A stretch of DNA of 60,205 nucleotides from a virus: positions 1 to 60,205 of the IMG/VR virus record IMGVR_UViG_3300033183_000125. One strand, 5' to 3'. The stretch's first letter is position 1, and every line of letters starts with the position of its first letter. The position numbers and the translations under genes are program-made. The notes below the pieces were generated by a model that saw nothing but the letters and a program-made list of their open reading frames with translations, was not told the origin of the DNA and did not search any database. Below, one piece after another: positions 7,812-47,561 of the stretch.

Positions 7812-7812
7812 G

Positions 7813-9774: not shown

Positions 9775-9816
9775 ATGTCGCGTTATCGTTACATCTCAAC
9801 AGTTCATGGGGAAGTA

Positions 9817-10242
9817 ATGAGCGTAGTTAAGAAAAACCCTCACCCAACAAAGGGAATGGGTCTTCCAGCCGTAACGCCGCAACAAGTTGACAGAGTTCGG
9901 CGTAGCGTTCTCGACGTGGTTCGTAAAAACATACCAGCAGTGCGTGAGGTCTTGGAGGGCAACCGTAAATGGGACAACCAACAAGTTAGGTTATTTGGCA
10001 TGATGCTTAACAAAGTCATGCCCGACCTACACCACAGTTTCAATCAGCACACAGTAGAAAACAAAAGCGTCGATGAACTGACAGTCGATGAGCTTATGGA
10101 AATTGCACGTCAGGGCGAGATAATCGAAGGAGAAGTAGAGGATGGCGATAACGAGAGCGGAGGCGGCGAAGAAACTCCTACAGATACAGGAAGTGAAGAC
10201 GGGTTTCAGGGGGTTCGTGAAAGCGTTAGCGCCGAAGTTTGA
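9817..10242 (+). CDS. terS: Putative terminase small subunit
   Basis: 141 residues from the ATG at 9817; an upstream in-frame ATG at 9775 would add 14 residues and neither has a strong ribosome binding site. A helical, basic N-terminal part (residues 15-90) is followed by a very acidic, Gly-rich tail. Position directly before the large terminase subunit and this composition fit a small subunit that recognises phage DNA. No family motif is obvious. The last 101 bases overlap the large-subunit gene in another frame. Confidence 0.6.
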   Translation: MSVVKKNPHPTKGMGLPAVTPQQVDRVRRSVLDVVRKNIPAVREVLEGNRKWDNQQVRLFGMMLNKVMPDLHHSFNQHTVENKSVDELTVDELMEIARQGEIIEGEVEDGDNESGGGEETPTDTGSEDGFQGVRESVSAEV

Positions 10243-23050: not shown

Positions 23051-24963
23051 TGTCTACTACTTATGCGCCTTCAGGCGTTAAGACCAAAGTATACCCTTAC
23101 GAGGATTTCCAGGGCATTGACGCATCACGCGACAAAGGCGCTTTGGACACTGGTCAGAAGCAACACTTGTTGGACATATCCAACGGCTTCGCTGATTGGC
23201 GAGGCTCTATCGTGCGTGACCCAGGCGCTACACAGCGCACACCTGGCGACGCCGTTATAACACATGTTACATTCTTTGGTAGAGATCTGGCCGTATGGGC
23301 GCAGAAAGACGGCGGCGGCACAAGTCTAAAGTCTGAGAGATCCATTGATAACCCACAGAGAACTATTGAGGTCGAGTGGGATCCAGTTACGCAAACCATA
23401 GTTGATGACACAACAGGTAACGCAAGGCCGACAAGCACTTTCAGATACTACGATGTTTTGTTTAAAGACATCCCGAATTACCCAGACATGACATCTCTTG
23501 CATGGGGAGATGACGCGACAGGAACGCCCGTTTATGTGCTTCGCATAGCCGTAGACAACGCAGAAGTTCTTGTACCCACAGACGATGGTGGGTCTCCAGC
23601 CACGATAGAAGTAGCTGTAGATGAAGTCTTTAACAGGGTAACTGTTTCTTCAAGCGGGTCAGCCGCTGGCGACCTTACATACTTCAACGATTTTTTAGAC
23701 GCACAGTCTATAGACTACTATCTGTACGCAAACAGAACAGACGTGAAGCCACAGTCTAACGGACACGAGGCTTTTGAGGTTTACCCGCAGACATCAATCG
23801 TCACATCAACCATCTTCAATAACAAGGTGGTTTTCGCTTCACGCGACTACCCTATGTATACATACGACGGTTTCAAGTTCGAGCAAATTGAGGCAGACAG
23901 TGACCCACGACCAGCTTACGTAGTCGCTGTGCAGAGACGACTTGCAACTGCTGGACAGCCAGGTCGGCGGACGCTCATAGACTTTAGTCGTGTGGATAAG
24001 GAAGACATCTACACCTTAGACGAAGACCCAGCCGCAGTTCAGGTTACACAAGCCTCAGACATCGACGTGGCCAACGTGATTGGCACAGCCGACGAAATCC
24101 GTGGGCTAGGCGTGTTCGAGAACAGCCGCCTTGCCGTGTTCACGTTTGACCAAACACTTGTATATCAACTGCACCCTGACTACACGCTTTGGCAGATTGA
24201 CGATAAAGCAAACATCAAAGTGGGCACTATCTCGCACAACACCATTTGCCAGGCTGGCGCTGACCTTTTGTTCTGTTCACGGGATGGGGTTCACTCTCTA
24301 CGTCGTTCAGAGACAAACGGTGTGACCATCTTTACCATTCCCATGTCTAACAAGATTGACTTGCTATACCGCTCATACGTCAGGAGCGTGGATGATACTG
24401 AGCAAATATCTGCATACTTTGACCAAGACGAAGGCCAGTACCACATATACTTCCCAATATCTGACCTGATTTCCAAGAGGCTTACACTAACCCTCAACCC
24501 AATGGCGGGTGGAGAAAGTAAGTGGTCTTCAGGAGACTTCCTGAATGTACGTTGTGGGAAGACGCTTGGAGGCGTGACGCTTCTCGGCACACCTGGCGGC
24601 GTATGGGAGCAAAACAAAGTCGAAGAGGTTGTCGAATACAGCCCAGAGATGGTGGTTACTACACCTATCTTGTGGCAAGGCGCTATCAACGACATAAAGG
24701 AAAGTTACAGTTTCATCCTGCAAGCAACTGGTAAAGGTGAGCTACAGGTGGAAGCCTTCGATGAGCGTGGAAGATATATGTCATCCATGCAGTTCCTCAT
24801 CGAAGATGACGGGGTGGACGACAAATTCCCCGATGTCCCGTTAAGTAGACAGTATGAAAGGAAGTTCGAGCATCGTTATCGTGGGGTGCAGTTCCGCTTT
24901 ACTACAAGAGGTAAGGGGCTTCTAAAAATAATTGGCTTTGCCGTTACAGTGAGGACAGGATAA
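23050..24963 (+). CDS. Putative tail nozzle/stabilisation protein
   Basis: 637 residues, beta-rich, opening with YPYEDFQGIDASRDKGALDT and a FADWRGSIVRDPG segment typical of podovirus nozzle (gp12-like, stabilisation) proteins. Many beta strands and several WGDD/VWEQ turns suggest a propeller-like body. It is followed directly by the tail fibre gene, as in related phages. Forms the distal tail tube in the known family. Confidence 0.7.
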   Translation: MSTTYAPSGVKTKVYPYEDFQGIDASRDKGALDTGQKQHLLDISNGFADWRGSIVRDPGATQRTPGDAVITHVTFFGRDLAVWAQKDGGGTSLKSERSIDNPQRTIEVEWDPVTQTIVDDTTGNARPTSTFRYYDVLFKDIPNYPDMTSLAWGDDATGTPVYVLRIAVDNAEVLVPTDDGGSPATIEVAVDEVFNRVTVSSSGSAAGDLTYFNDFLDAQSIDYYLYANRTDVKPQSNGHEAFEVYPQTSIVTSTIFNNKVVFASRDYPMYTYDGFKFEQIEADSDPRPAYVVAVQRRLATAGQPGRRTLIDFSRVDKEDIYTLDEDPAAVQVTQASDIDVANVIGTADEIRGLGVFENSRLAVFTFDQTLVYQLHPDYTLWQIDDKANIKVGTISHNTICQAGADLLFCSRDGVHSLRRSETNGVTIFTIPMSNKIDLLYRSYVRSVDDTEQISAYFDQDEGQYHIYFPISDLISKRLTLTLNPMAGGESKWSSGDFLNVRCGKTLGGVTLLGTPGGVWEQNKVEEVVEYSPEMVVTTPILWQGAINDIKESYSFILQATGKGELQVEAFDERGRYMSSMQFLIEDDGVDDKFPDVPLSRQYERKFEHRYRGVQFRFTTRGKGLLKIIGFAVTVRTG

Positions 24964-26815: not shown

Positions 26816-28021
26816 ATGGCTGACAGAAAAAATACCACAATGAGCGGCCAGCCTCGTGATGAGGAGAACTACGGCCTACGTGAGTTTTTGGATGATTACG
26901 GCCCGATGTCCATCATTACCCGTATGCTACAAGGCCACGACGACGAGATACCATCAATGCCTTCTGGTCTTGGTGGTCTTGGCTTTGATGCTTTAAGCAC
27001 TGACCCAGATGCGCCGTCTATCAGAGACTACCAAGAGTACGAGCAGAAGCATTTTGATGAAATACGCAAGAAGCGTAATCAAATCAGCGACGACATTATG
27101 AACTCTGGCAACGACGGGTTTGGCAAGCTCATGGATGCTGACGAGTTGCTGGGACACTACTCTTCAATGAAAGGCGGCGACGACACCCTGCTATACGGGC
27201 AGTCTGGTGAAATGGTTATTCCGAACCGTGTTCAGCAAAACTTCCCAGAACTTGCTATGGCCGTACAGCTTGCCACAGCAAAATCAGGGCTAGACCCACA
27301 GCGCTACGTCGTCGGCAGTGAGCGCGGAAGTTATAACGAAGATACTAACATCCAGCAATTCAACGACCCCTGGTATATAGACCTTTGGAACTGGGGTAAA
27401 GATGTAGCGACAAACGCATGGGATAGCTCTAAAGACACAATCAACCAAGCCGCACAGGACTGGGCCAACGACCCACTAGGTAGCGACCTAACTCAGTCAG
27501 CCCTGATGGGTGTTGGGACTTACGGTGCGGCTAAACTTGCTGGTGCTAATAATGACCAAGCGCTTCAGGCCGCAATCGGCGGTGCGGCTGGTTATGGTCT
27601 TGCGGGCATGGGTTCTGACGCAGAAATCTCTACAGCACAGAAATTTCTATCTGGGGCTATGGGCGGGTATGGCGCATACAACGCCTATCAACCACCACCA
27701 GACCCGCAACCGACATACACGCCGTCTAACCCTCTGCCAAACAATTACGGTCAGATACTTGATAGCGTTCCTGTCGGATACGGCGCTGACAACGAACAGG
27801 CTAACCTGTCAATGACACTGCCTGCGGCCACTCCCCCTGCTTACACTGGGGCGCAGAAACCAGAAGGCGTCACCTACTTAGACGAAATTGATAATAGGGA
27901 TGGCGGCACAAGCTACGTCGATGCTGGGCCTCAATACAGTCCGACCTTCGGCAAAAGCATCTCAGCACAAAGCCGTCGGAGTGACTTAAGTGGTTTCGGT
28001 AGCAAGGTTCTATACATGTGA
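26816..28021 (+). CDS. Virion-associated protein with C-terminal SGFG motif
   Basis: 401 residues. N-terminal 130 residues are acidic and charged, followed by DTLLYGQSGEMVIPNRVQQN, a pattern recurring in marine podovirus structural genes. A Gly/Ala-rich hydrophobic region (about 215-290) could insert in membranes. The C-terminus ends SGFGSKVLYM, similar to the ends of three other proteins in this cluster. AGGGGGC precedes the ATG. Likely an internal or tail component; exact role unknown. Confidence 0.6.
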   Translation: MADRKNTTMSGQPRDEENYGLREFLDDYGPMSIITRMLQGHDDEIPSMPSGLGGLGFDALSTDPDAPSIRDYQEYEQKHFDEIRKKRNQISDDIMNSGNDGFGKLMDADELLGHYSSMKGGDDTLLYGQSGEMVIPNRVQQNFPELAMAVQLATAKSGLDPQRYVVGSERGSYNEDTNIQQFNDPWYIDLWNWGKDVATNAWDSSKDTINQAAQDWANDPLGSDLTQSALMGVGTYGAAKLAGANNDQALQAAIGGAAGYGLAGMGSDAEISTAQKFLSGAMGGYGAYNAYQPPPDPQPTYTPSNPLPNNYGQILDSVPVGYGADNEQANLSMTLPAATPPAYTGAQKPEGVTYLDEIDNRDGGTSYVDAGPQYSPTFGKSISAQSRRSDLSGFGSKVLYM

Positions 28022-28473
28022 TTAGGTTTGCGGAAGAAGAAGATGTGGGGCGTTGTGTTGATTTGGCTGAACGGTTCCACCAGTCATCGTACTGGAACTG
28101 GATACCATTCTCAAAAGAGAGAACTGAGGAGTTTGCAATGCGAGTTATTGCAGACCCGAACAGGCTCGTCCTCGTTGCCGAAGACCTGTCTAGCAATGAG
28201 ATCTACGGGTTCTTTGTGGCTGTCGCTTCTCGGATGTATTTTGCCGAAAACCACAGATGCTCTTCGGAAGAAATCATGTTCGTGTCGCCTGAAAAACGCG
28301 GAGGTGTAACCGCTCTAAGGTTTATGAAGGCTTGGCAAGAATGGTGCAGGGATATGGACGTATGCCACATGGCGTTTAACCCAACCTCTCACGGGCAGGG
28401 CGACAGGTGGGACGGTTTTATGAAGAAACTAGGGTACACTAAAGCTGGCGAATGTTTTAGGAAGGTTATTTAG
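28018..28473 (+). CDS. GNAT-family acetyltransferase
   Basis: 151 residues starting with GTG, overlapping the previous stop by 4 bases. It has the GNAT layout: IRFAEEEDVGRCVDLA at the start, a central beta strand LVLVAEDLSSNEIYGFFVAV, then the acetyl-CoA loop region VSPEKRGGVTALRFMKAWQEWC, and GYTKAGECFRKVI at the end. GNAT enzymes acetylate amines using acetyl-CoA; target unknown. Similar genes sit among tail genes of T7-like marine phages, where they may modify virion proteins. Confidence 0.8.
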   Translation: MIRFAEEEDVGRCVDLAERFHQSSYWNWIPFSKERTEEFAMRVIADPNRLVLVAEDLSSNEIYGFFVAVASRMYFAENHRCSSEEIMFVSPEKRGGVTALRFMKAWQEWCRDMDVCHMAFNPTSHGQGDRWDGFMKKLGYTKAGECFRKVI

Positions 28474-32126: not shown

Positions 32127-34376
32127 ATGGCAAAGTTTTTTCAAGCGGCGACCGACGCCTTCAACAAGCAAGAAGACCGTATCTACGATAAGCGTAAGCG
32201 AAATCGTGAAGACTTTTTAGCTTACCGCAAGATGAAGGCGGAAATGGGTGAGGATGTCACGGCAGAAGAGCTAGACAAGTATCGTCGCGGCCTAGCTGGC
32301 AGTGACGCCTTCTTCCTGCACGACCTCCCGTCAGGCGCTATGATGAGTTCTCTAGCCGACCGTACTAATATGCGTGCGCTAAATACTCGGCGCGAGGAAG
32401 AAGCCGCAGAAGTCAAACGCCAGAAAGATGAACAAGAGCGCTGGGACAGCTTCCTAAACTTCCATCTCGACAAAGACGTAACCAATGGCAAAGACAAGGA
32501 GTTGATGCGCCAGGACTGGATGAAGAGCTTTCAGGATCGGCCAGAGCTTGGTCAAAGTTTGTGGGATCGTTGGTCAGCCAACATCCTAGAACAGCACTCT
32601 GCCTTGAAAACCCAATCCGCTTATGATTTTGCAAGTACAACACTGAAAGACGTGGACGACTTAGGCCAAGCAAACACTATCATGGGCGCACACAACCTAC
32701 CAACATGGAAGCAAAACATGGTAGGCACTTTGATCCAGCAACGGCAGGACAGCAAAACAGCCGAGGCCACAGCGAAGGCCAACCAACTTGTGGTCAACTA
32801 CAGTGGCGACAAGTTACGCGGGCTAGATGATAAAGGACTTGAAAAGATAGCGGCAGAAATCATTGCTGGTGCTGAATATAACATGCCAGTTAACAGCACT
32901 GAGTACAAAGCACTACTCACAGCCGTTAAAGCATCTCTATTAGAACGACAAAAACAATCAGACTATCTCTTTGTTGAAGGGAACACGAAGGAGTTTAGAA
33001 CTCACATCCTTTCTTCTGACAGCGAGTTTATTAAAACAGTCGCCGCTAAAGGGTTTGATGACGAATCCGTGCTTGCCGCTTTCAATATGGCTAGAAAGAG
33101 GTTCTTCCTCGACGAAGTGACAGCCGATAGTGACGAGTTCAAATTCTGGATCGAAGCGGCAGAGAGGGCTATAGGCAACCAGTACGAAGCTGACTGGAAT
33201 GAAGAGCAGTCCAAACTAAATGCAAAAGCAGAAGCGGCAGTAGAGGCCGCCAAAGGCCAGGTAGACGCACTTGCTGGGATGTCCTTGTTTGAGGAAGGCG
33301 GTGCTGGTTACGCCGTAATGAGCAGTTTGAAACAAGGCTTTGTCTTGACCCAAGATGCGTTTCAGGTTGCAAATGCTTTACAGCAGAGGTTTGGCACAGA
33401 AGTTGTGCAGAAGGGATCTGCTGAAGACGCGGCAATAATGAAGAACTGGCTCCTCTCAAATGGCTACGCTATGAGCGAGCAGGCGTTCCAGACGAAGTTT
33501 ATGCGCGAAAACGGTACAAACCATATACCACCAGGTAAGAACCTAGACGTGTACATTGGGGAACAAAAAGAAGACTGGACACCCAGGCTCAATGCTTTCG
33601 TGGAGGAAATATTTACAGGCGTGGCCAAAGACGAAAATGGCCAGCCTTTACTGCCGTTCGACGCCACTCCAGATAAAATTATTGGCATTAAGCAACAGAT
33701 TATTAACGACGTTGAAGAGCAATTAGATGCTGACTTAGAGGTCGCCATAGAGAGTAGAGGGGCGTTCAGAGGGCTAAGTGAGGCTGAGATAAAAAGCAAG
33801 CATGATGGTCTCAAAAACACCATTCTTAAACAGCTTGAGGAAATGCTCCAAGATCCGAAGAACAAAGGCCCACGTCCATCTACGATTAACTCGCCCGCTT
33901 TTATCCTACAAGGTTCGACAGGTAACTTATACAAGGCTCAAAACGGCGCACAAAGCTATAAGGACACAGATGGTCAGGCTCTCGTCGTTGGGGAAATGTA
34001 TCGTTGGGACGCAGACAAAGGAACTTTCACAAAACAGTCTGCGGCGCAACTCCGTCCTATGCCTCCTCTATATTCAGGCCCGCAATCAAATCAAAGGCCA
34101 AGTCCTACAATCAACAACGCGGGGTGGATGCTTGGCAACATGCAGAGCAAAAACGACGCAGTGCTTGGGTTCCTCCCAGACCCTGCTATTGGCGTGCGAC
34201 CTGGCGGGCCGTTTGATACGCCAAGAGATTGGATTAGTAGTATAATTATGCAGATGGGCGCACAGTATAGAGCGCAGGGCCAAAACATAAGTGACAGGCA
34301 ACTGTTCATCCTACTTGGTCGTCCAGGGTCTTCGGGCGGAATAGGCGCACTGAATGACGGCGACTTTCAAGGATAG
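32127..34376 (+). CDS. Putative internal virion protein (gp15-like position)
   Basis: 749 residues, almost the length of T7 gp15 (747), and strongly helical over residues 1-560 with many charged heptads. It lies between the gp14-like gene and the giant gp16-like gene. No sequence signature of gp15 is claimed; the call rests on size, helical content and order. It would form part of the periplasmic ejection channel. A terminal segment from about 640 is Pro/Gly-rich. Confidence 0.5.
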   Translation: MAKFFQAATDAFNKQEDRIYDKRKRNREDFLAYRKMKAEMGEDVTAEELDKYRRGLAGSDAFFLHDLPSGAMMSSLADRTNMRALNTRREEEAAEVKRQKDEQERWDSFLNFHLDKDVTNGKDKELMRQDWMKSFQDRPELGQSLWDRWSANILEQHSALKTQSAYDFASTTLKDVDDLGQANTIMGAHNLPTWKQNMVGTLIQQRQDSKTAEATAKANQLVVNYSGDKLRGLDDKGLEKIAAEIIAGAEYNMPVNSTEYKALLTAVKASLLERQKQSDYLFVEGNTKEFRTHILSSDSEFIKTVAAKGFDDESVLAAFNMARKRFFLDEVTADSDEFKFWIEAAERAIGNQYEADWNEEQSKLNAKAEAAVEAAKGQVDALAGMSLFEEGGAGYAVMSSLKQGFVLTQDAFQVANALQQRFGTEVVQKGSAEDAAIMKNWLLSNGYAMSEQAFQTKFMRENGTNHIPPGKNLDVYIGEQKEDWTPRLNAFVEEIFTGVAKDENGQPLLPFDATPDKIIGIKQQIINDVEEQLDADLEVAIESRGAFRGLSEAEIKSKHDGLKNTILKQLEEMLQDPKNKGPRPSTINSPAFILQGSTGNLYKAQNGAQSYKDTDGQALVVGEMYRWDADKGTFTKQSAAQLRPMPPLYSGPQSNQRPSPTINNAGWMLGNMQSKNDAVLGFLPDPAIGVRPGGPFDTPRDWISSIIMQMGAQYRAQGQNISDRQLFILLGRPGSSGGIGALNDGDFQG

Positions 34377-34447: not shown

Positions 34448-37400
34448 GTGCCATACGAACATAAAGGCAAAGGTCTTAATAAGTACACTGGAAACACAGG
34501 CCGCACAGAAGGCTATACTAGCCAAGACTACGCATCAAACCTCAACGAAGATACAGCAAAAAACCTTTTGGGCGACAACAGGTTCTTAAAAGACCTGTAC
34601 GACTACTATGGCCAAAGAGACGGCAAGTCTTTCTCGACCTCAGACGAAGCAATCGAATACTACCTAAACGACAGACGCTGGCGTAACAACAACACCATCT
34701 CTATAGGCCGAGATGTGTATGACGCTTACAGCGCGAACGACGCACAGGCTATGAGACTAGCCCGCATCCAACAGGTATATGATGCGCTTCCATTCGGTGT
34801 TGATGGTGGCTTAGAAGCGGTTGCAGAGACTGGCGCGGCAATGCTCTCTGACCCCCTGAACCTTATCGGCTTCGGTGCTGGTGGGCAGGCCGCTCGCCTT
34901 GCCGCTGGTACAGCCGCAAAGCAGGCTGGTAAACACATAACTAAAGGCGCTATAACGAGGCAAGCGCTAGGTAGCGCGGCCAAAGCAGGCTTCGTCGGCG
35001 AAGCCGTCGCGGGCGGTATCACAGAAGGTATCGCTGACATCGGTATCCAAAACAGAAACGTAGCACTCGGATTGCAAGACGACGTATCTCTCTTACGGGC
35101 AGGCGGCGCGGCTCTTCAAGGTGCGGCGTTTAGTGGAGCGATTGGTGTTCCTATGGGTCTTGCTGGTGCGGTAGCACCTACTGGACTACTTGGCAAAGCC
35201 AGAGATGGCAAGATTATGGGTTCTGTCTTTGACGACAAGAACGCAAGAAAGGCTGGAAAACAAGGCGTAGCCCAACTCAGCCGAGAAGGCTTGGAGCAGT
35301 TAAGCGAAAAAGTCGGCACAAACATGGACTTGAACTCCATCCGTCGTGGCATGGCTGACGCGGCTGTCAACCGCACAGGAAGAGTAACTCCAGATGGTGG
35401 ACTACAGTTAAAGCCTAGCGTTCGCGGCGACTTGTCAGAAACAGAAGCAACTCCTGATTGGGGTCAGGCTGGCGAAGCCGAAGTAATGTCTGGCATTGAG
35501 GACAAGGTTAAGCAAGAGCTTGAAGAACATAGAGCGGCGCGGGAAGAGGCCAGGCAGGAAGGTAACACTCAAGAAGCCGATAGGATCGAAGGCGAAGATA
35601 TTGGCGCGGCACAGCGTAAAATCGACCGTATCAACTGGATCAACCAGTGGCCTAGAACAAGAGAAAAACTGCAAGCGCAGGCGAATGAGCTTACGGCTAA
35701 CCTACAAGCAGAAGGTAAGACTGGATCTACCCCAGAACTAGACGACTTAAACAAGCGCATCAGAAACGGTGATAACGCTTACGGAGACTTCGTAGCACAA
35801 AGCCGCACTGAGCTACAAAACGGCGGCTCTATGGCCGCAGACAGAATTGATAGTATTCTCGAAAGCCCGAACGAATTACTGGACGAGGCAGTACAGGGCG
35901 AAGGCTTTACAGTCGCGCCAGTCGCAACAACAGGCACTGGGCAACGTGTATCACTGGATCAAGACACACGTCCTGGTCAGCAAGAACAGTTCCGTCCACA
36001 GCCTCAAGAGCAGGACGCACAAACAGCAACGCCAGAACCTGAACAAGAAGCACCAACTGGCGGCGCACAGGCAGAGCCAGAAGCGCCAACTACTGACGAG
36101 CGTCTTGCACAAATTAACTCACGCTTAGACGGACGCAAGAAGGGTAGCATAGCTTACGAGCGTAAACGCCTTGAGCGTGAGATGGCTCAAATGCCAGAAA
36201 CTCTTGAAGACGGGACGCAGAACCCAGAGCGTCTTACCCTTCAAAATCGTATGGACGCTATAGAGCAGGAGGCTATTTCTCTAAAAGAAGAGCAACAGTC
36301 TCTGGCCACTCGCCAAGCTGAAGAAGCAAAGCAGGCCAACGACGACATCCTAAACGAAAACCCAGAGCAACCCGCACAAGAAACCGTACTGGCTGAAGAT
36401 ACAGCGCAACCAGAAGCGGCGCAGGCTCAGACTACACAGGCTCCAGAACCAGTAATAGATGTTAATACACAAATCACAGACTTCATCGACAACGAGTTCG
36501 AGCCAACACTGGCTAATATTCGTTTTGAATTTATTAGCCTCGGTATGGAGCGCCCAGCCGTAGACGCTATCATTGCGTCACTTCCAAGAGGCAAAAGTAA
36601 AGCCGCCACAGAAGCACGCAGAGAGGTATTCAGAGAGACAGTAAACATCGTTCGTGGTCAGCGCGAATGGCAGGGCATACTGAACCGCTCTCAAGGTCTG
36701 ACTGGTGCAGGCGACGAATTGTTTGATGAGACAATAGCTGACGCCCTGATCGAAAGCACAGTAGGTGAAGCTCTCAGCGAGCCTACCAAAAACGCTCACC
36801 GTGAATGGCGCAAGCGTGGCGTTGCTCGCTATGCAATGGACATCGAAAACGAGTTCATGGGCATGGCTACAATCGACGAGATGTTGGAGGTTGTACGCAA
36901 CCGACACGGTGAAGGTGGGTTCTATGACATGGTTGCCGAGTTCTGGGCTAACGCACAGAAAGGTATCCTGCCATCACCAGATGACGGTATGCCGCAGTTC
37001 GTCCGCCAACAGATCGCTACCTTGCCGAAAGAAATGCAAGTTGAGTGGACTGCATTTAGAGAAGCCGCCGTCCGCAACCTTATGAAGACTGGCAAGCTGT
37101 CAGAGCAAAGCGCGAAAAGACTTATCGCCACTCAGATGGATGCGATGCTTGACCGCTTCTTGCAGATGCAGGCGTATCAAGCAACCGACCCGCTTGGCAA
37201 TGTATACAGCACACGGATGCTGGCAACACGCGGTATGCGGGCTATAGACATTGACGAGAAAGCCATTAAAGAGGGACACGGAGATCACATTGGCCGTGTA
37301 CAGCATAACCTCCGCAACGTAACTATGGGCAATGGGCGTCCAGGTTCTGGTCGCAACATAAGCGACAAGATGGTTGGCCGTATCCAGTCCTTCCTGCGCG

Positions 37401-40400
37401 AAGTGCCAGAGGGGTTCAGTGGCCGCACTTTCACAACAATACGCACCGTAAAAGATGGCAAGACATTCTTATACGACGCATCTGAAAGCGCACGCATCCA
37501 GCTTGACGTATCTAAGCTAGAAAACAACACCTCAAAGGCTCGTGCTTTTGATGAGGAGTTAAGAGATCGTAGCATCGAAGCGGCTCAACGTGCCAAAGAC
37601 GAAGGCAGAACCAACGTACTAGACCCACGAGAGCTTGAGGAAGTCACAAAAGAAATTCGTCTTGCGGAAGGCGCAGTTGCTAGAGCAACCAAAGCATACG
37701 ACCAGCAGATTGACGACGGAATAAATATCGACACACCTGGTTACATTGAAGCTGTCCAGAGAATGGAGGACAACCCAGACGGCCCACAAGACTTGCTGTC
37801 TGACCTCGAAGACCAAGTGCTTTCCAAGTACAGCGACAAGTTGGACGAAGCTAATGACAGGCTAAAGGCGGCTCTAAAGCGTGCAAAAGCCCTGACTGGC
37901 TCGAAAGGGACAGACGCAGAAACTATCAAGCTGGACTTGAAAGAGAAGTATGAGCCTCTCGTATACACAGACAAGGCCACAGTAGTAGCTAACAAAATCG
38001 AAGCTGACCGTTCGTCTCATGTACGCCGTTACGCAGAAGTGCAGGCCCGCCTGCGTGGTATCAATTCCGATCTGCGTGCCGCAGAGCGTCAAGGTAATGC
38101 TGAGAAAGCTGTCGCCCTGAAGAAGGAGCGTGCCAAGCTAAACAAGCGTGCTAAAGAAGTGATGAACTTGATGACGCCTGCTGACCGCAAGCGTCTTGAA
38201 GCAGACAACGCAACTGCCGCTATTCAAGCTCTGGGCAAATTGAAGCGCGAACTTTATAAGGCTCGTAATGCAGACGCTCAAAGCAAGGCAGACATCCCAC
38301 AAGATGAGCTTATCAGAGAGACGGAAGAAATATTCAACGTCAATCTCTCTGAAGAAGAGTTGTCTCGTGCAGAGTATTACGCCAACCAGGAAGAGTTGGC
38401 CAGCCTAGCGTACCAAGAAATGCAGGGAGAACTGGCTCACTTGCATGAACACAGTCAGGGTATGCCTAAAGAAGAGGTTGCCGCTTCTGCACGTCAAATT
38501 GTTGACAACGCCAAAGACAAGATTCAGGCATCCAAGCCTGACACACGCCCTAAAGGCGAGCCAGAAGCTCACATTGTCCAGATCGGCAAGCGTGCTTACA
38601 ACTTAGCGAAAGACGTTCAGTACCAAAAAATATCTGGTGACACTACTAAGTTCTTCGTCGCTGGGCGGGAAATGGGTTCTGTCAAAGAGTTCACTTCTGC
38701 CGACGGCGAAAAGACTTACAGGATCACTCGTCGTGACGGCGACAAGATTGTGTCAGACATGGCGTCCAACAGAGTGGAACTTTACAAGAAGCTGGCACAG
38801 CAGTTGAAGAAAGAACTAGATGGAGTTCTTTCTTCAAACAATGTCCCAGAAGAACGTGGTTTTGCTTCGTCGCCTACAGAAATCCCAGACTACCACAACA
38901 CACAGCGCTACGCTTCAGTCGAAGATGCGCCTCTCCAGGCGCAGTCATCCGACCCGATCTCGGTCGCCGACACCACTAAGCCGCAAGACCGTGGTGTAAG
39001 TCAAGATATGATGCCCGAAGGCAAGCTAGTGGCAATTCAAATCATTGACCCGAAGCACCCAGATTATGGCAAAAACAAAGGCACTCGCGTCATCAATCAA
39101 ACAAGCAAAAAAGGTGCGCCTCCTCAGACATCATCGTCTCAAATTGCTGGTGGGTTGAAACCAGGCCAGTTCGTAGTCGGGTCTGTCGATAGTGTAAATT
39201 CAAACGGTGGCCCAGTTAAGTCTGGCACAGTAGCCGCCGTCAAAACATTCCGCCCACTAAACCCTGACGACGAGTTCGTAGGGTTCAGCGGCCAGCGCAT
39301 GACTGGTCGTCAGGCTGGCGAAACTGAGCCGTTGATCGCCCCAGAAAATATCGACTTACCTAGCTCTCCTCGCGCTCGTGAGAACAGGGCGACCCATGTA
39401 AATGAGTTGGACAACATAGAACTCAACATGGCTAACGTATCACCAGCCCTAACACGGAATGGGATGCCTGCAACTGTTCGCACTGCTGGAGACTTACAGC
39501 GGTTCCTTGCTGACATGGAAGACGTGCAGTGGGATCGCTTCGAGAACATTGACCAGTTCGATACTTTCACAGAAGCGCTTGCGGCTGGGTATGAAACCCT
39601 AGCTATGTATGCGCCAAATGGTGTGAAGCTACCTAATCAGAAGCGCTCGCAATCATACAAGCAACTTAACGAGATGCTTGCTGGTAAAGACCAGAGAGAA
39701 ATATCTGAAATACTGAGCATCTTCAACATGATAGCTGGCTCTGAAAACAGACAGGGCGCAATGCTTGAAAGCGCCATGCCAGTATTTGATAAGGCCGAGC
39801 GGTACGGGTTCAAGCAACCTGGCCGCCACATGGCAAAAGACAAACAGTCAAACAGCATACTGATCGGCACATCTAACAAGCAGACAGACGCCATGAACTT
39901 TGCCCATGAGATGGCTCATTGGGCTTACCAGAACATGATGACGCCAGCAGAGCGTCTGGAGTTCTGGCAAATTGCTAGAGGCTACGTCGGCACAGAAGGT
40001 GCTGACATTGGCGCACTGAAGAAGCGTTTGCCAGGCATCAGCAAAGGTGAAATCCGTAGCCCATCAGAGTTCTTCGCTAACCAGTTTGCTATGTATGTAG
40101 CCAACCGCCGTCAAATGGCGCAGGCAAGCCTGCTGACACGCCTGTTCCAAGACATCGGAAGAAAGGCTGAGAGCCTTGTTCGTCGCCTCATGGGTATGGA
40201 CGATACCCTAGACGAGAAATTGGTTCAGATGTTTGACCGCATTATGCCAGATCCGTTCGATGCCGCTGACAGCGTGTCTTCTGGCCGAAGAATGGCCAAC
40301 CAGTTTGACGAGATATTAGCCAAAGCCAACGGTAAAGGCTCTTCGTCTGCAAGGATGGCGGCACAACAGCTACATGACTTGCGCTCTATCCAGCTAGAAC

Positions 40401-43400
40401 TGGAACAAGTACTGCTAGAAGGCGGTGCTATGGGGCATGACGCACGCATCCTCGCCGACGTACTTGAGCGTGCCGCCAAAAAAATATACGGCAAGTTCGG
40501 TGGACGCCCAGGAACACGCCAGCACGCTAGTCGTACAGACATCAACGGCAACGTAGTCGAGGGCGGCAAGCGTGTCACTATGCTCGACAGCTATGACAAG
40601 GGCGGTAATCCTCTATACGACAACTCTAAAGCAGAAATCACCTTGCCAAATGGTAAGGTCGTTAAGCCGTTCAAATACATGGACAGCCGCATCGCTCGTG
40701 GCCGTATGCTCGGCATGTCTTACAAGATTATGCGGTTCCTGAACGATGAGAACTTCTCTAACGCTCTGTCAAAGCTAGACGCATCAGATCTAACAGACCA
40801 AGAGATCAATGCAGAACTGGCACGGCTGATCGCAACGCAGGAAGATGGTGGGATGATGTCAATCCCAGACGAGGTTGCCGCATTTGCGAGCGATAACAGC
40901 GGCACACTGGCAAGCTCGTTCGATACTGAAGCGGCAATTCTGCGCTCAATCTCGGAGAAGACTGACGCAGACGGTAAGCTGTCAGCGCTTATGGTTCAGC
41001 AAGCAAACGACATGATCGTTGCTCTGGACTTAGGCATTGACGAGTTTATCCGTATCTACAACACCAACTTCCGCAGTACGAATGGCGTTGCACCTAGCAT
41101 CGACAAGGTTGGCCGTGTCTACAAAAGTGGTAATGCGACTACTCAGAAGTATGTCAAGCGTGTCGAGAAAAAGGCACAGGACATGGCTATCAAGGTCGCC
41201 AACTCTATCAACGACGCTGTTGACACCGTGTTCGGAAACTCAACCGTCGCAGACGTAGACCCACCAGTGACACGTAATCTCAAGGAGATGAACAACCAAG
41301 AGATTATGATGCGTATCAATGACTTAAAGGCCAACGATACGCCAGAACTGCGTGAGCTAAAACAAGAACTTTACCATCGTATCAACGCTCGCCCAGAAGA
41401 CGCCGCGATGGAGCTAACGCCGACAACCGCCGTGATGGTTAAGCGGTTGATGGACATAGACCTATCGGACGTAGGTGCAAAGAAGAAGTTTCTTTCCGAC
41501 TACTTCTACAAAGCCCTCGACATGGGTGACTATCAACTGGCCGAAAACGTAGTCCATATGATGGTCACCTACAAGCAAGAAGCTGGTGTGCCAGTTAAGT
41601 CTAGCTTGGTCGGCAGAGCATTAGATATTGAGGCGGCGCAACGTAGCACTCCTGACATGGAGAACGGTGTGCCAGGTGATGCGCCAGCGGCTGTCAAGGA
41701 AGTCCTTACTAAGCTAACCCACCGCGACAAGCGTGTTGAGTACACAGCCCGCACCATGATGTACCGTATGCTCAACATGATGGGCAGAACTGCTACTGAA
41801 CTGGTCAGAGACAAAACCACGTTTATGACAACCGAAGACTTGTTCAGGCTTTCTGGCGAACCTATGCCAGCAGGGGCAAAGGCAGGGTTTGCGGAGGCCG
41901 CCAACCTAAAGGGTGAGCCTTTCAACACCACTCGGAAACAACTGCGGCAGTTCGCTATTGGCATTACAAACGGTTCGACAGACCCAATCGACATTATGCA
42001 CGAGATCGGCCACATGGTCAGCCGTGCAACATTTGACGACGTTGACAGAGACCACATGCTCAAAGGGTTCAACGAGGCTCTGAAGAGTAACCAGCCAGCG
42101 GCTATCGAAATACAAAAGCGCTACAGCCAAATAGAAAACTACACTGACAACGACGTTGCAGAGGAATGGTTTGTAGAAGGTTGGGGTCAGTGGATGGCGG
42201 AAAAGGTTGCGAAAGGCAACATATACGACATCCGCTTCGGCAATGGCGACATCGGCGACCTTACAGTTAAAAACTATCTGCTAGAGCTTGCCGACCGTTT
42301 GTGGGAATACGTTGCTTATGTCACGAATGGTTTGATACGCAACAAGTCTGTACGTCAGATGTACCGACAGATGCTGTATCATGGTGATATGTTTGCTGGT
42401 AAGCGCAAGGTGAACCCAGTCAAGACACTGGTAAATGCCACGCAGTTCCCAGCAGTCAACCCAGCACTGGCCAAGCCATACGCTAGACAGGTACTTAGCT
42501 CCATGAGTAACGAGAAGCGCCTGCTTCTTCGTGAATACTTAGGCGCGGGGCCAGACGAAGACTTAGCAGACTACATCGAATACCACGGCACTCCTGTCAT
42601 GGATCAGTTCGATAGAGTTCGCAACCCAGACACATACCTAATCCCTTCTGATGATGGACTGTTTGGGCCAGGGGTCTATACCACACGCAACCTAGACTAC
42701 GCTGGCGGTTACGCCGAGCGTACAGCGCCAGACGCTTACCGCAATATGGCTAAAGACCTAGAAGGTGAAAAGGCTGAAGCGGCAGAAGCAATCATAAAGC
42801 AGATAGAAGCTCTGCAAGAAAAGCTCGAAGATGCACACTGGCACGCTGAAGGGGACGCTGGGTACGCTAGGGTGGCCCACTACTCTAGCAAACTAGAGGC
42901 CGCTACAGAGGCGTTCGCTCGCCTAACTGGAAACAAAAAGTCTCCAGGCGTCATGCCTATGTTTGTCCGCACAAAGAACCATATCGACTTGCGCTCTAGC
43001 AAGCGGTTTGATTACGGGTCTGGCGAGACTAGCGACGTTAGCTCTTTACTCTCTTCAGCCCAGCGTCGTGGGTATATTAACCAGATGCAACGCCAGCAAA
43101 TAGCTGACTTCCTTGAAACAGATGGCGTAGACGGCGATGAGTTCTACGAAATCATGGTCAATGCTATGGCAGACAGCAGTGCCGATAACTTTAGGTTTGT
43201 AAAACCAGAACTCCAACCTAACGGCAGGAAGCGCTTTTCTCAGTTCCTCAAGGATGAGGGGTACGAAGGCATAATATCCAACAGCAGTGCTGGCTCTCAG
43301 TTCGAGGAAACAATTACGTTCGACCCGAACAACATGAAGCATATCGAAGCAGACTTCTTCGACAGTGACAGACGCGGCATGTACTACAGTGTGCTTGGCG

Positions 43401-46138
43401 ACGAAGGAACTGTCGGTCTTGCGGGCGATGCTCTGCAACAAATGGAACTGCGCGGACAACCAATTAACTTAGACGACATGGTTGGCGTGGCTAGACAACT
43501 GCAAGAGGCTGGTATGCCAGACCTTGTTGCGCCAGTTCGTAGAATGTTGCGTAAGGAACTGCCAACAGCAAGTGATGTAGATGCAGTCAAGAAGTCATCA
43601 ACGGTATTCGGATACTTCAGAGAGAACAGCACCAAGCTAAGAGAGGCTGGTGCAACGTGGCTTGGCGATTACATTAAACCGCAGAACGGTGCAGGCGTTT
43701 ACGAGCGTCACGACGTAGACCTTGCAGATAAAGTCATGCCTATAATGAACGCCCTGAAGCAACTGCCAGATAACAAGAACTGGGCTACTAGATGGTCTCG
43801 CCGTTCACTGGCATTTCTGCCAAACAGGATTACAGGCAAGGTAAATCTCGAAAATATGCCGCCGTCTCACAAGCGTATTCTTGGCGCTATTCGTCGTGGA
43901 GAGGCAGAGGTGCGTAAGCTGGATGCACAAGAACAGCGTGCGGCTAGGTTGATCATTGCTGAGTTTGAAGCAGAGCGCCAGCGTATGGTTGCTCTCAACA
44001 TACCAGTAGGTGACGCTCGTCGCGGGCCTGGTAGTTACTATGTGCCACAGCAATGGGACATAGAGTTAATTAGGCAGAACCCATCGAAAGCAAAGAAGGC
44101 TTTTGCACAGTTCTTCTTTGAGGAAAGCCGTCGCCCAGACTTTGAAGCCAATAGGTTGGACGCCGCTGAAGCGCACAAAAAGTCCGAAGACTTTATCAAC
44201 AGCCTCATGGACAGCGATGGAGAGGTTTATGGGGATGACGTATTACGTCGTGCCGTCGGCGATCCATTCTATAATCGCGTAATCAACCTTGATCCAGAGC
44301 AGTATGACTTTATGGATGCGTTCTTGGTCAACGACTTAGAAGGGCTACTCGCAAAATACTTTGACAGCACAACGCGAAAGATTGCGTTGACTGACAGGTT
44401 CGGTGTTGCTGGTCACGGCTTCTCAGCCTACATGAACGTAGCTAAAGAAGGCGTAACAGGTGCATTAAAGACACTGCGCTCAAGCAAAAAAGTGGTCTAC
44501 AAATACCGCCAGTATCAGGAGGAAGCGCCTGTTGAGCAGATGCTAGTGCCAGCTTTAAGACTGCTGGACAACGAAGCAGACAACCTGATGAGAAGCATAC
44601 AACTGGCTCTGCAAGACGGGGCTAGGATAGACGAAGCAAAGCGGATGTTGCTGGCTCACTACGACCCAGCAGACCAAGCCGACCCAAATCTACTTATTAG
44701 GGTTGATGCAATTATCAACGGCCTCAAGGACTTCCCTCAAGGTGGGATTGACACAAACACAGCAACACTAGCAGAGCGGATGATGGACATATTGAACAAG
44801 CGTCCGCTTAAAAAGTTTGCTGAAAACCAGTTTGAGTACAAGGTATCTCGCACAGTCAAGGCATTTAACTCTGTATCATTGCTGGCTTTCACAACCCTTA
44901 CATCTTTGGGTGACTTGGGTATGCCTTTGATACGCTCTGGCAACTTCAAAGCATACTCAAAAGCTATGACCAGATACATGTCAGACCCAGACTACAGAGC
45001 CGCCGCCAAGAACATCGGCGTTGGTATTGAGAACCTACTCCATGACCGCATGGTTCAGATGGCTGGTGAAGGTTCACAGAAACTACAAAACAGCTTCTTT
45101 AACTTCACACTACTAACGCCCTGGACAAACATGAACCGTGAGATCGCAGGCATGGTAGGCTTTGAAGCCTTCAAGTCAGAGATTGCGAGAGCAAGAAAAC
45201 TGGCGGCGGCTGGACAGAAGCAAAGCCCTGCGTATCAAACCGCCGAGCGTTTCCTGAAGCGGTACGGTATGACAGGGGAAGGCGCAAGTGTGGACTTCCT
45301 ATCTGAAAACAGCCCGATGCTTGGCGACATAAAAGACACGGACATGGCGGCTAACAAGCAGTTGCGGTATGCGCTACTGCGGTTCACTAACGAAACCATT
45401 TTCACTCCGAACCCTAATGACATACCACTGTTTTTCCAGACACCGTGGGGGTCTATGCTGTTCCAGCTAAAGAGCTTCCAGTTGATGATGGCTCGCATGG
45501 GTAAGTACGTCATAGACGAGTGGAAGGCTGGCAACAGAGCGCCAGCCGCATATTTAGTAACAGCAGGCGTAGGTTTAGGCTTCGCCAGTGCGGCGTCTAA
45601 AGACTACGTTCAGTCTCGTGGTGGCGAGGACAACGAACAGCGTGCTTTGAGAGAGCGCCGCATTAGTAAGTCCGTGTTCGCGCCGATTGCTAGTGCTGTC
45701 GGTGTAGAAGATGACAGCATGACTGACGAAGTTCTAGGTAACTACCTTGAAGGCATGATGGCTATAGGTGGATTCGGTCTATTTGGCGAGCTTATGTACA
45801 ACACAGCAGAGCAGGCTGACAACGGTAAGTACGGATTTGTCAGAACAGTAGGGGCTTTCTTAGGCCCGTCTGTAGGCGTTGCCGAAGATGCTTATGACGT
45901 ATTCATCGCTGGCCCTGCTGGTTACATGAACGACGAAGAAGGGAAGAACGCTCGCCGTCGTGAGGCGGTGCGTTCAGTAGTTGGTCGTATCCCAATAGCT
46001 GGTGGCATACGTAGCTTCAAAGAGGGGGTCGTTGACAGCGTAGCTGGCGAGGCGGGAACTGGAGGCAAGAAGAAAAAACAGGCATCTAAGTTTGGAGGCA
46101 ATAGCTTCTCAGGTGGCTTTGGGAAGGATGGTTTCTGA
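34448..46138 (+). CDS. Giant polyvalent ejection protein with two metallopeptidase motifs and ADP-ribosyltransferase-like domain
   Basis: 3896 residues, GTG start; about 19% of the genome. N-terminus (FLKDLYDYYGQRDGKSF..NNNTISIGRD) and Gly/Ala-rich region to about 250 recur in large podovirus virion proteins. Long charged coiled coils follow to about 1600. First zincin-like site: HEMAH 1820-1824 with E1874. Second: HEIGH 2518-2522 with E2572/E2573. An ADP-ribosyltransferase-like domain follows: YHGT 2712-2715, GPGVY ending at Y2744, and FEET with E2953-E2954, an H-Y-E arrangement. The C-terminal 600 residues have hydrophobic segments and the end SGGFGKDGF. Domain arrays like this are described as polyvalent proteins, delivered with DNA to counter host defences. 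Its place after gp14/gp15-like genes suggests a gp16-like ejected protein. Peptidase and transferase activities are inferred from motifs. Confidence 0.8.
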   Translation: MPYEHKGKGLNKYTGNTGRTEGYTSQDYASNLNEDTAKNLLGDNRFLKDLYDYYGQRDGKSFSTSDEAIEYYLNDRRWRNNNTISIGRDVYDAYSANDAQAMRLARIQQVYDALPFGVDGGLEAVAETGAAMLSDPLNLIGFGAGGQAARLAAGTAAKQAGKHITKGAITRQALGSAAKAGFVGEAVAGGITEGIADIGIQNRNVALGLQDDVSLLRAGGAALQGAAFSGAIGVPMGLAGAVAPTGLLGKARDGKIMGSVFDDKNARKAGKQGVAQLSREGLEQLSEKVGTNMDLNSIRRGMADAAVNRTGRVTPDGGLQLKPSVRGDLSETEATPDWGQAGEAEVMSGIEDKVKQELEEHRAAREEARQEGNTQEADRIEGEDIGAAQRKIDRINWINQWPRTREKLQAQANELTANLQAEGKTGSTPELDDLNKRIRNGDNAYGDFVAQSRTELQNGGSMAADRIDSILESPNELLDEAVQGEGFTVAPVATTGTGQRVSLDQDTRPGQQEQFRPQPQEQDAQTATPEPEQEAPTGGAQAEPEAPTTDERLAQINSRLDGRKKGSIAYERKRLEREMAQMPETLEDGTQNPERLTLQNRMDAIEQEAISLKEEQQSLATRQAEEAKQANDDILNENPEQPAQETVLAEDTAQPEAAQAQTTQAPEPVIDVNTQITDFIDNEFEPTLANIRFEFISLGMERPAVDAIIASLPRGKSKAATEARREVFRETVNIVRGQREWQGILNRSQGLTGAGDELFDETIADALIESTVGEALSEPTKNAHREWRKRGVARYAMDIENEFMGMATIDEMLEVVRNRHGEGGFYDMVAEFWANAQKGILPSPDDGMPQFVRQQIATLPKEMQVEWTAFREAAVRNLMKTGKLSEQSAKRLIATQMDAMLDRFLQMQAYQATDPLGNVYSTRMLATRGMRAIDIDEKAIKEGHGDHIGRVQHNLRNVTMGNGRPGSGRNISDKMVGRIQSFLREVPEGFSGRTFTTIRTVKDGKTFLYDASESARIQLDVSKLENNTSKARAFDEELRDRSIEAAQRAKDEGRTNVLDPRELEEVTKEIRLAEGAVARATKAYDQQIDDGINIDTPGYIEAVQRMEDNPDGPQDLLSDLEDQVLSKYSDKLDEANDRLKAALKRAKALTGSKGTDAETIKLDLKEKYEPLVYTDKATVVANKIEADRSSHVRRYAEVQARLRGINSDLRAAERQGNAEKAVALKKERAKLNKRAKEVMNLMTPADRKRLEADNATAAIQALGKLKRELYKARNADAQSKADIPQDELIRETEEIFNVNLSEEELSRAEYYANQEELASLAYQEMQGELAHLHEHSQGMPKEEVAASARQIVDNAKDKIQASKPDTRPKGEPEAHIVQIGKRAYNLAKDVQYQKISGDTTKFFVAGREMGSVKEFTSADGEKTYRITRRDGDKIVSDMASNRVELYKKLAQQLKKELDGVLSSNNVPEERGFASSPTEIPDYHNTQRYASVEDAPLQAQSSDPISVADTTKPQDRGVSQDMMPEGKLVAIQIIDPKHPDYGKNKGTRVINQTSKKGAPPQTSSSQIAGGLKPGQFVVGSVDSVNSNGGPVKSGTVAAVKTFRPLNPDDEFVGFSGQRMTGRQAGETEPLIAPENIDLPSSPRARENRATHVNELDNIELNMANVSPALTRNGMPATVRTAGDLQRFLADMEDVQWDRFENIDQFDTFTEALAAGYETLAMYAPNGVKLPNQKRSQSYKQLNEMLAGKDQREISEILSIFNMIAGSENRQGAMLESAMPVFDKAERYGFKQPGRHMAKDKQSNSILIGTSNKQTDAMNFAHEMAHWAYQNMMTPAERLEFWQIARGYVGTEGADIGALKKRLPGISKGEIRSPSEFFANQFAMYVANRRQMAQASLLTRLFQDIGRKAESLVRRLMGMDDTLDEKLVQMFDRIMPDPFDAADSVSSGRRMANQFDEILAKANGKGSSSARMAAQQLHDLRSIQLELEQVLLEGGAMGHDARILADVLERAAKKIYGKFGGRPGTRQHASRTDINGNVVEGGKRVTMLDSYDKGGNPLYDNSKAEITLPNGKVVKPFKYMDSRIARGRMLGMSYKIMRFLNDENFSNALSKLDASDLTDQEINAELARLIATQEDGGMMSIPDEVAAFASDNSGTLASSFDTEAAILRSISEKTDADGKLSALMVQQANDMIVALDLGIDEFIRIYNTNFRSTNGVAPSIDKVGRVYKSGNATTQKYVKRVEKKAQDMAIKVANSINDAVDTVFGNSTVADVDPPVTRNLKEMNNQEIMMRINDLKANDTPELRELKQELYHRINARPEDAAMELTPTTAVMVKRLMDIDLSDVGAKKKFLSDYFYKALDMGDYQLAENVVHMMVTYKQEAGVPVKSSLVGRALDIEAAQRSTPDMENGVPGDAPAAVKEVLTKLTHRDKRVEYTARTMMYRMLNMMGRTATELVRDKTTFMTTEDLFRLSGEPMPAGAKAGFAEAANLKGEPFNTTRKQLRQFAIGITNGSTDPIDIMHEIGHMVSRATFDDVDRDHMLKGFNEALKSNQPAAIEIQKRYSQIENYTDNDVAEEWFVEGWGQWMAEKVAKGNIYDIRFGNGDIGDLTVKNYLLELADRLWEYVAYVTNGLIRNKSVRQMYRQMLYHGDMFAGKRKVNPVKTLVNATQFPAVNPALAKPYARQVLSSMSNEKRLLLREYLGAGPDEDLADYIEYHGTPVMDQFDRVRNPDTYLIPSDDGLFGPGVYTTRNLDYAGGYAERTAPDAYRNMAKDLEGEKAEAAEAIIKQIEALQEKLEDAHWHAEGDAGYARVAHYSSKLEAATEAFARLTGNKKSPGVMPMFVRTKNHIDLRSSKRFDYGSGETSDVSSLLSSAQRRGYINQMQRQQIADFLETDGVDGDEFYEIMVNAMADSSADNFRFVKPELQPNGRKRFSQFLKDEGYEGIISNSSAGSQFEETITFDPNNMKHIEADFFDSDRRGMYYSVLGDEGTVGLAGDALQQMELRGQPINLDDMVGVARQLQEAGMPDLVAPVRRMLRKELPTASDVDAVKKSSTVFGYFRENSTKLREAGATWLGDYIKPQNGAGVYERHDVDLADKVMPIMNALKQLPDNKNWATRWSRRSLAFLPNRITGKVNLENMPPSHKRILGAIRRGEAEVRKLDAQEQRAARLIIAEFEAERQRMVALNIPVGDARRGPGSYYVPQQWDIELIRQNPSKAKKAFAQFFFEESRRPDFEANRLDAAEAHKKSEDFINSLMDSDGEVYGDDVLRRAVGDPFYNRVINLDPEQYDFMDAFLVNDLEGLLAKYFDSTTRKIALTDRFGVAGHGFSAYMNVAKEGVTGALKTLRSSKKVVYKYRQYQEEAPVEQMLVPALRLLDNEADNLMRSIQLALQDGARIDEAKRMLLAHYDPADQADPNLLIRVDAIINGLKDFPQGGIDTNTATLAERMMDILNKRPLKKFAENQFEYKVSRTVKAFNSVSLLAFTTLTSLGDLGMPLIRSGNFKAYSKAMTRYMSDPDYRAAAKNIGVGIENLLHDRMVQMAGEGSQKLQNSFFNFTLLTPWTNMNREIAGMVGFEAFKSEIARARKLAAAGQKQSPAYQTAERFLKRYGMTGEGASVDFLSENSPMLGDIKDTDMAANKQLRYALLRFTNETIFTPNPNDIPLFFQTPWGSMLFQLKSFQLMMARMGKYVIDEWKAGNRAPAAYLVTAGVGLGFASAASKDYVQSRGGEDNEQRALRERRISKSVFAPIASAVGVEDDSMTDEVLGNYLEGMMAIGGFGLFGELMYNTAEQADNGKYGFVRTVGAFLGPSVGVAEDAYDVFIAGPAGYMNDEEGKNARRREAVRSVVGRIPIAGGIRSFKEGVVDSVAGEAGTGGKKKKQASKFGGNSFSGGFGKDGF

Positions 46139-46559: not shown

Positions 46560-46719
46560 GCTGGATAACAACCAGTGTCCAAGATGTTACTGCAATCTGC
46601 CAGCGGTAGAGGTGCATGGACATATACAATGCCAAGTTTGCCACCTCTACATCTCAGAGTGTTGCAACGGAGAAACAGGAGAGACAGATGTTATCTGCAC
46701 TAATCGGGCCAGTAAGTAG
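46531..46719 (+). CDS. Small zinc-ribbon protein
   Basis: 62 residues with CPRC at 16-19 and CQVC at 34-37, a spacing typical of a zinc ribbon, plus further Cys at 21, 44 and 45. It overlaps the previous gene by 29 bases and the holin gene by 32. Zinc ribbons of this size occur widely in phages; the binding partner is unknown. Confidence 0.6.
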   Translation: MKEKGPIQNKLDNNQCPRCYCNLPAVEVHGHIQCQVCHLYISECCNGETGETDVICTNRASK

Positions 46720-47107
46720 TTTACTGGACAAGTTCATACCAGACGCTGATACCAAGCAGAAGTTGGCGCACGACATAGCGACGATGGCACAAAAACATGC
46801 TCACGAAGCCGCAATGTCTCAGGTCGAAGCTAACGTAGCGCAGGCCAAGCACGCATCAATGTTCGTTGCGGGGGCTAGGCCAGCCATCATGTGGATATGT
46901 GCGCTCGGACTACTAACCAACTTCTTCATTCTGCCTCTGGCCGAGTGGGGTACGGCTGTATTCGCGCCTGATATTCCAATGCCAGAGTTTGAGCAACTGC
47001 AATCAGGTGAACTTATGAGCTTAACCCTAGCATTGTTGGGGCTTGGTGGCATGAGAAGCTGGGAAAAAACAAGGGGCGTAGCCAGGAAGAACATGAAGGA
47101 TGAGTGA
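46688..47107 (+). CDS. Three-span holin
   Basis: 139 residues from the ATG at 46688, which has AGGAGAG 5-11 bases upstream; an in-frame ATG at 46616 overlaps the zinc-ribbon gene and has none. An amphipathic N-terminal helix is followed by hydrophobic spans near 60-80 and 105-120. The layout matches the 3TM holin family associated with gene transfer agents and marine phages. Holins open the inner membrane so the endolysin can reach the wall. The endolysin gene overlaps its end by 8 bases. Confidence 0.75.
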   Translation: MLSALIGPVSSLLDKFIPDADTKQKLAHDIATMAQKHAHEAAMSQVEANVAQAKHASMFVAGARPAIMWICALGLLTNFFILPLAEWGTAVFAPDIPMPEFEQLQSGELMSLTLALLGLGGMRSWEKTRGVARKNMKDE

Positions 47108-47561
47108 CTTCAAGTTATCTGAACGCAGTCTCAACAAGCTGGAGGGCGTAGACGAGCGCCTGAAGCTGGTTGTACTTACAGCAATCAAGCACACCGACGT
47201 AGACTTCGGAGTAATCTGCGGACTACGAACAGAAGAAGAGCAGGCCGAACTTGTTAAAAAGGGTGCGTCACAGACCATGAAGTCTAAGCACCTAGAGGGC
47301 AAGGCCGTAGACCTCATGGCATACATCGGCTCTCGTGGCTCATGGGAACTCAACCTCTACGACAACATCGCTGACGCAATGAAGAAGGCGGCAAAGAAGG
47401 TCAAGGTTCCAGTCCGCTGGGGTGGTGCGTGGCATATCGCAAACATCGCTGAGTTTGACGGGACGATGGAATGGGCGGCTTCGAGTTATATTGATGTTCG
47501 TAGGGCAGAAGGCAAGCGTCCGTTTATCGACGCTCCACACTTTGAGATATGGGGTGACTAA
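47100..47561 (+). CDS. Endolysin, M15-type peptidase
   Basis: 153 residues. Zinc-binding pattern of VanY/M15 peptidases: SKHLEGKAVDL with H64 and D71, and APHFEIW with H147. These enzymes cut the L-Ala-D-Glu or D-Ala peptide links in peptidoglycan. No signal peptide, so it depends on the holin. Length is normal for single-domain M15 endolysins. It overlaps the holin gene by 8 bases. Confidence 0.9.
   Translation: MSDFKLSERSLNKLEGVDERLKLVVLTAIKHTDVDFGVICGLRTEEEQAELVKKGASQTMKSKHLEGKAVDLMAYIGSRGSWELNLYDNIADAMKKAAKKVKVPVRWGGAWHIANIAEFDGTMEWAASSYIDVRRAEGKRPFIDAPHFEIWGD

Follow-up and report, generated by a model that had tools for sequence, protein, structure and literature searches.

A giant virion-type protein of a temperate marine phage with two zincin-like domains and an ADP-ribosyltransferase-type domain between internal virion protein-like ends

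Results

The giant gene and its genomic setting

The window (the whole stretch of DNA analysed, a 60,205-bp IMG/VR virus record) contains an open reading frame (ORF) at 34448-46138 on the plus strand, which starts with GTG, has no internal stop codons, encodes 3,896 residues and takes up 19.4% of the record. A preliminary description of the sequence had located HEMAH, HEIGH and a YHGT..GPGVY..FEET array in one gene occupying a fifth of the genome, and all of these were found at the positions it gave. The start is conserved: GTG follows CTGGAGTAT in the window and in the relatives L003, L006 and L008, and L057 has ATG; conservation extends to the ribosome-binding site. The giant ORF is uninterrupted in L003, L006/L007 and L008 at 54-69% identity to the window; it encodes 3,955 residues in L057 (39% identity) and 2.9-3.3 thousand residues in many further relatives (about 30% identity). 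The final set comprised 37 complete ORFs of more than 2,400 residues (range 2,423-4,014), namely that of the window and those of 36 relatives, and the C-terminal domain alone was matched in 381 viral contigs. Close pairs gave dN/dS values of 0.03-0.17 across the terminal, zincin and ADP-ribosyltransferase (ART) domains, with the variable linker reaching 0.26. The giant gene is real, and all of its domains are under purifying selection.

The gene lies in a late-gene setting, with genes for terminase, portal/adaptor and major head protein upstream, and genes for a holin (GTA_holin_3TM) and an M15-type endolysin directly downstream (46616-47561, plus strand). An upstream gene (32127-34376, plus strand) encodes a 749-residue protein that is similar to T7 gp15 in size and position and gave no significant sequence match. 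The genome also carries genes for a GNAT acetyltransferase, a Prim-Pol, an integrase and a CobS/CobT-like pair. This gene content matches that of CRP-810, a Roseobacter phage that serves as the type for a family of temperate marine phages (PMC11288001), and the window is accordingly a temperate phage of the CRP-810 type.

Three other loci were noted. The GNAT acetyltransferase gene (phrog_1249; 28018-28473) lies within the virion gene block, and such a gene also occurs in CRP-810 and, close to the giant gene, in Podoviridae sp. ctfjg026. The CobT (VWA) and CobS-like AAA/MoxR pair (1587-5857, minus strand) is kept in most CRP-810-type phages and seems likelier to be an AAA-VWA chaperone pair than to serve cobalamin synthesis. 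Two adjoining proteins with RCC1-type beta-propeller repeats, encoded in the virion block at 15049-16794 and 16804-19014, are likely tail or receptor-binding parts.

Both ends of the protein resemble internal virion proteins

The N-terminal domain (residues 24-245; 34517-35182, plus strand), which ends in a hydrophobic segment (225-249), shares homology with internal virion protein D (IVP-D) of pelagiphages and scored 157 bits in a profile comparison with that of HTVC019P. The C-terminal domain (residues 3034-3870; 43547-46057, plus strand) is the most conserved part of the giant protein and is homologous to internal virion-type proteins of Escherichia phage TL-2011b (66 bits by profile) and Vibrio phage CKB-S2 (45 bits). 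Both matched proteins are encoded beside a lytic transglycosylase gene, and that of CKB-S2 is named internal virion protein 1. Behind the N-terminal domain, a charged, low-complexity and poorly conserved linker covers residues 300-1640 (35345-39367, plus strand).

Like the genes for pelagiphage IVP-D and T7 gp16, the giant gene lies close to the end of the virion block. The giant protein is three times longer than these proteins, carries enzymes inside and, as assessed with Pfam, has no transglycosylase domain. In a comparison with a set of 11 proteins, T7 gp16 had no significant match to either end (6.4 bits). Within this limit, the T7 gp16-like placement suggested in the preliminary description was supported, the ends matching IVP-D and the CKB-S2/TL-2011b proteins. 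Taken by its position and by both ends, the giant protein resembles an ejection protein.

Two zincin-like domains are probable paralogues

Two zincin-like domains, Z1 (residues 1700-1960; 39545-40327) and Z2 (residues 2470-2690; 41855-42517), both on the plus strand as are all features of the window below, are separated by a helical region with no known domain (residues 1961-2399; 40328-41644). Z1 contains HEMAH (1820-1824; 39905-39919) and E1874 (40067-40069), its likely third zinc ligand; Z2 contains HEIGH (2518-2522; 41999-42013) and E2573 (42164-42166), likely the third ligand of that site, which aligns with E1874. By composition, 0.03 HExxH motifs are expected per such protein, and none of 5,000 shuffled sequences held two. 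In alignments with members down to 20-40% identity, H1820, E1821, H1824 and E1874 were among the most conserved positions of Z1, as were H2518, E2519, H2522 and E2573 in Z2, and for either motif, most relatives in which both sites could be read retain the two histidines, the glutamate between them and the distal glutamate. From the pair E2572/E2573 named earlier, it is E2573 that is conserved and E2572 that is not.

A profile-profile comparison of Z1 with Z2 gave a probability of 90% and an E-value of 1.5e-6 over 87 columns, with both histidine pairs and the distal glutamates in register, as compared with E-values of 0.37 and 0.084 for control pairs of unrelated domains. On this basis Z1 and Z2 are probably paralogues that arose by duplication, and the two peptidases of the preliminary description look like copies of each other more than like separate activities.

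In the AlphaFold model of Z1, strands lead into the HExxH helix and then the glutamate helix (pLDDT about 80-90); the Z2 model is helical. Foldseek searches of the PDB gave no significant match for the Z1 model, for which nothing usable was returned, or for a model of Z2 with the ART domain, so that the zincin fold is inferred. The two metallopeptidase-type domains themselves are indicated by motif, by conservation and by their profile match to each other. None of the curated Pfam zincin models scored above its cut-off, ATLF being sub-threshold at 14.7 bits against 27.4, and sequence searches of solved structures with near and diverse alignments returned nothing significant. A match to angiotensin-converting enzyme (E 0.5) was rejected, as most of the aligned stretch fell outside the HExxH helix. 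The MPTase domains of Schitoviridae (N4-like) vRNAPs matched Z1 at E 1e-4 with the aligned glutamate out of register, and were set aside; profile comparison of the same domains with Z2 gave no match.

Relatives lose one zincin site or the other

Both zincin domains were matched in 56 homologues, and exclusion of two contigs that start inside Z1 left 54 that could be read. We found that 30 of the 54 keep both sites, 16 have lost that of Z2, eight that of Z1 and none both. In the alignment, IGDLMHM, VRFLSGM or MFNLMSI replaces MHEIGHM where Z2 is lost, and HAxxQ and similar sequences mark the loss of Z1. On a tree of the C-terminal domain, Z1 loss falls in one clade and Z2 requires four changes. 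With eight and 16 losses in 54, the chance of seeing no double loss would be about 0.05 if the rows were independent, which they are not. The reciprocal pattern agrees with redundancy of Z1 and Z2, and it is a lead rather than proof, since about five changes on the tree are too few to establish it statistically. In the genome of Poseidonocella sp. HB161398, a prophage copy (L099, 1370-11203) encodes a 3,278-residue protein in which Z1 is intact and the active sites of Z2 and ART have decayed.

An ART-PolyVal domain follows Z2

The ART-PolyVal domain (residues 2700-2985; 42545-43402), which has a helical insertion after its second motif, carries YHGT at 2712, GPGVY at 2740 and FEET at 2952, with H2713 (42584-42586), Y2744 (42677-42679) and E2954 (43307-43309) as the key residues of motifs 1, 2 and 3. 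Scans of the whole chain against Pfam, PHROGs and NCBIfam were uninformative, and the domain surfaced when residues 2690-2990 were scanned alone, scoring 33.7 bits with ART-PolyVal (PF18760) against a curated cut-off of 31.2. Of 21 relatives, 15 also hit ART-PolyVal with an E-value of at most 0.1.

H2713 and Y2744 are kept in nearly all homologues. Glu occupies the third position only in the window's clade; sister groups have Gln there, and Ala, Gly, Thr or Ser occurs elsewhere. The Glu corresponds to one change on the tree. The H-Y-[E/D] active site, as defined by a His of strand 1, a Tyr of strand 2 and an acidic residue of strand 5, is complete in the window and its near clade; the H-Y-E triad of the preliminary description is near-universal in its first two members, but its glutamate is confined to that clade. 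By its place in the motif E-T-I-T-F-D-P, we take E2954 to be the counterpart of the PARP catalytic Glu, on motif comparison. Some PARPs lack the catalytic Glu. By analogy, members of the wider family without it may be restricted to mono-ADP-ribosylation, or may be inactive.

The ART part of the AlphaFold model had pLDDT values mostly of 70-89. Tankyrase/PARP chains recurred among the PDB Foldseek matches of the Z2-ART model at E 0.5-2.3, below significance, and their recurrence is suggestive of an ART fold. The best match in a BFVD search was an unnamed protein (E 3.6e-4), and an ART-PolyVal phage protein appeared at E 0.22.

Discussion

Relation to polyvalent proteins

Polyvalent proteins were defined in 2017 by Iyer et al., who found MPTase and ART to be the most frequent of their domains that act on proteins (PMC5512222). 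The giant protein is likewise a very large phage protein that joins zincin MPTase and ART domains in a late virion gene setting, with at least two unrelated catalytic domains on one chain and virion/late genes adjoining. The polyvalent architecture first proposed for it is borne out by the ART-PolyVal score above the cut-off, the two zincin motifs and the location in a late/virion block before holin and endolysin. It differs from polyvalent proteins in that its ends come from internal virion proteins and its zincins fall below all Pfam zincin cut-offs; ArdC-N, ParB, primase and RNAP modules were not found in it.

The joining of peptidase and transferase, initially put forward as a candidate for a new counter-defence cargo, had already been described for polyvalent proteins. 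The vRNAP of Roseovarius podovirus RPP1 (CBX87992.1), a phage of a marine alphaproteobacterium, has been named as an ART prototype (PMC5512222), and its sequence combines two HExxH motifs and one YHGT-type ART as in the giant protein, which by its motifs is a known combination on a different scaffold. The N4-like and RPP1 vRNAPs are of comparable size (3.5-3.8 thousand residues), whereas the order in RPP1 is ART, HExxH, HExxH and that in the giant protein is HExxH, HExxH, ART. A hidden N4-like RNAP module was considered and rejected, as BLASTP, HMM and Pfam comparisons gave no significant match to the N4 or RPP1 vRNAP. The giant protein is ordinary in kind; what is unusual is its scaffold and the way its two zincins have evolved. 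We did not find "polyvalent protein" joined with "internal virion protein" in the literature searched, and the paper on CRP-810 makes no mention of polyvalent proteins or peptidases (PMC11288001).

The 3,859-residue giant protein of Podoviridae sp. ctfjg026 (MW202828, UOF82488.1) has two HExxH motifs, and the region of the first matches Z1; no ART motif was found in it, and its other regions had no match to the window protein. Its gene (L096, 3177-14756) carries the misleading annotation "reticulocyte binding/rhoptry protein".

Possible roles of the zincin and ART domains

We lean towards the hypothesis that the giant protein is a polyvalent ejection protein with a scaffold at its ends and enzymes between them; the explanation that needs the fewest assumptions is that the zincins process the protein itself and the ART modifies the host. 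Both ends, which have homologues among the internal virion proteins of other phages, would form the delivery scaffold, and the two zincin-type domains (probable duplicates) and the ART, as recognised by motif, profile and conservation, would be carried between them. According to a 2025 preprint, the N4 vRNAP is ejected and its 3,500 residues form loosely linked domains, among them a C1 domain that bears HExxH (PMC12633501). By analogy with this precedent, the giant protein may be packed in the head and injected alongside the DNA, entering the cell as a chain of loosely joined domains. The main substrate of the zincins would then be the giant polypeptide itself: their cuts, made either before ejection or after it, would release the ART and separate the scaffold from its cargo. 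Lineages may lose one zincin because either could suffice for this cutting. T4 Alt is an ART that acts on host proteins early in infection. The ART of the giant protein may modify host proteins at a similar stage.

Processing of the polypeptide by MPTases has been proposed for polyvalent proteins (PMC5512222). The N4 vRNAP, although it has a HExxH domain, enters the virion uncleaved (PMC5512222), so processing before packaging is not general. A point against self-processing is that no cleavage site was identified in the giant protein. A more specific possibility, which we put forward tentatively, is that Z1 and Z2 are a duplicated virion protease with at least one copy indispensable, i.e., a redundant self-processing (or entry) protease in an injected phage protein. 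If true, this would be a function new for phage-delivered polyvalent proteins. The natural losses of single zincins give a testable prediction on the role of polyvalent-protein metallopeptidases, which has been open since 2017.

It is possible, though rather unlikely in our estimation, that the zincins and the ART are all effectors on host or defence proteins, including counter-defence, and that the zincins do not process their carrier. Host systems have been proposed as the targets of polyvalent proteins as a class (PMC5512222), and the host-directed action of such ART domains in the T4 Alt model, along with the strong conservation of the ART H and Y, is in keeping with this. However, zincins that resemble duplicates and seem evolutionarily interchangeable are more readily explained by a single common substrate than by two targets in the host, and the third ART residue varies across the family. 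The new counter-defence cargo envisaged in the preliminary description found no backing either, as we observed no defence-related association and nothing specific to a defence target, and self-processing explains the zincins at least as well.

We regard as improbable a mainly structural or regulatory role for the zincin and ART domains, with folds kept for packaging or domain spacing and activity lost in many lineages. The persistence of either zincin domain in some lineages after its site has died, the Ala, Gly, Thr, Ser or Gln at the third ART position outside the window's clade, and the requirement of N4 packaging for the region around the MPTase domain of its vRNAP (PMC5512222) would suit such a role. 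Yet no homologue is dead in both zincins, the ART H and Y are nearly invariant, and in the window's clade neither zincin site and none of the three ART residues has been lost.

The annotated copy in CRP-810

In CRP-810 (OR671924), the stretch matching the giant gene is annotated as gp36, gp35 and gp34, under the names "internal virion protein D" and "hypothetical". Both terminal domains of the window protein, together with its Z1, Z2 and ART, align along gp36-gp35-gp34 without any change of order; unlike in the window, frameshifts place them in three ORFs. The coding sequence switches from one frame to another at the gp36/gp35 junction, and at the gp35/gp34 junction the frame is shifted by a tandem duplication of 31 bp that could be an artefact of assembly. 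Since there are frameshifts at the junctions and L028, whose DNA is 84-90% identical to that of CRP-810, runs unbroken across gp35/gp34, the sequences indicate that the three correspond to one gene, broken in the isolate or in its assembly. That the giant reading frame is instead an assembly fusion of separate genes, as the three ORFs annotated in CRP-810 and a split homologue in L083 might suggest, is extremely improbable and was ruled out by intact single ORFs in independent contigs of many samples, and by L028 being unbroken where CRP-810 has the duplication. Because the copy in the sole isolate lies broken in three annotated genes, the giant protein, which belongs to a widespread marine phage family, has been overlooked as one protein. 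The breaks in CRP-810 lie at 24061-24089 and 30065-30111 of L011 (OR671924.1). In L083, the homologue is split into two ORFs (1216-6609 and 6867-9962), with the break inside a degenerate ART domain.
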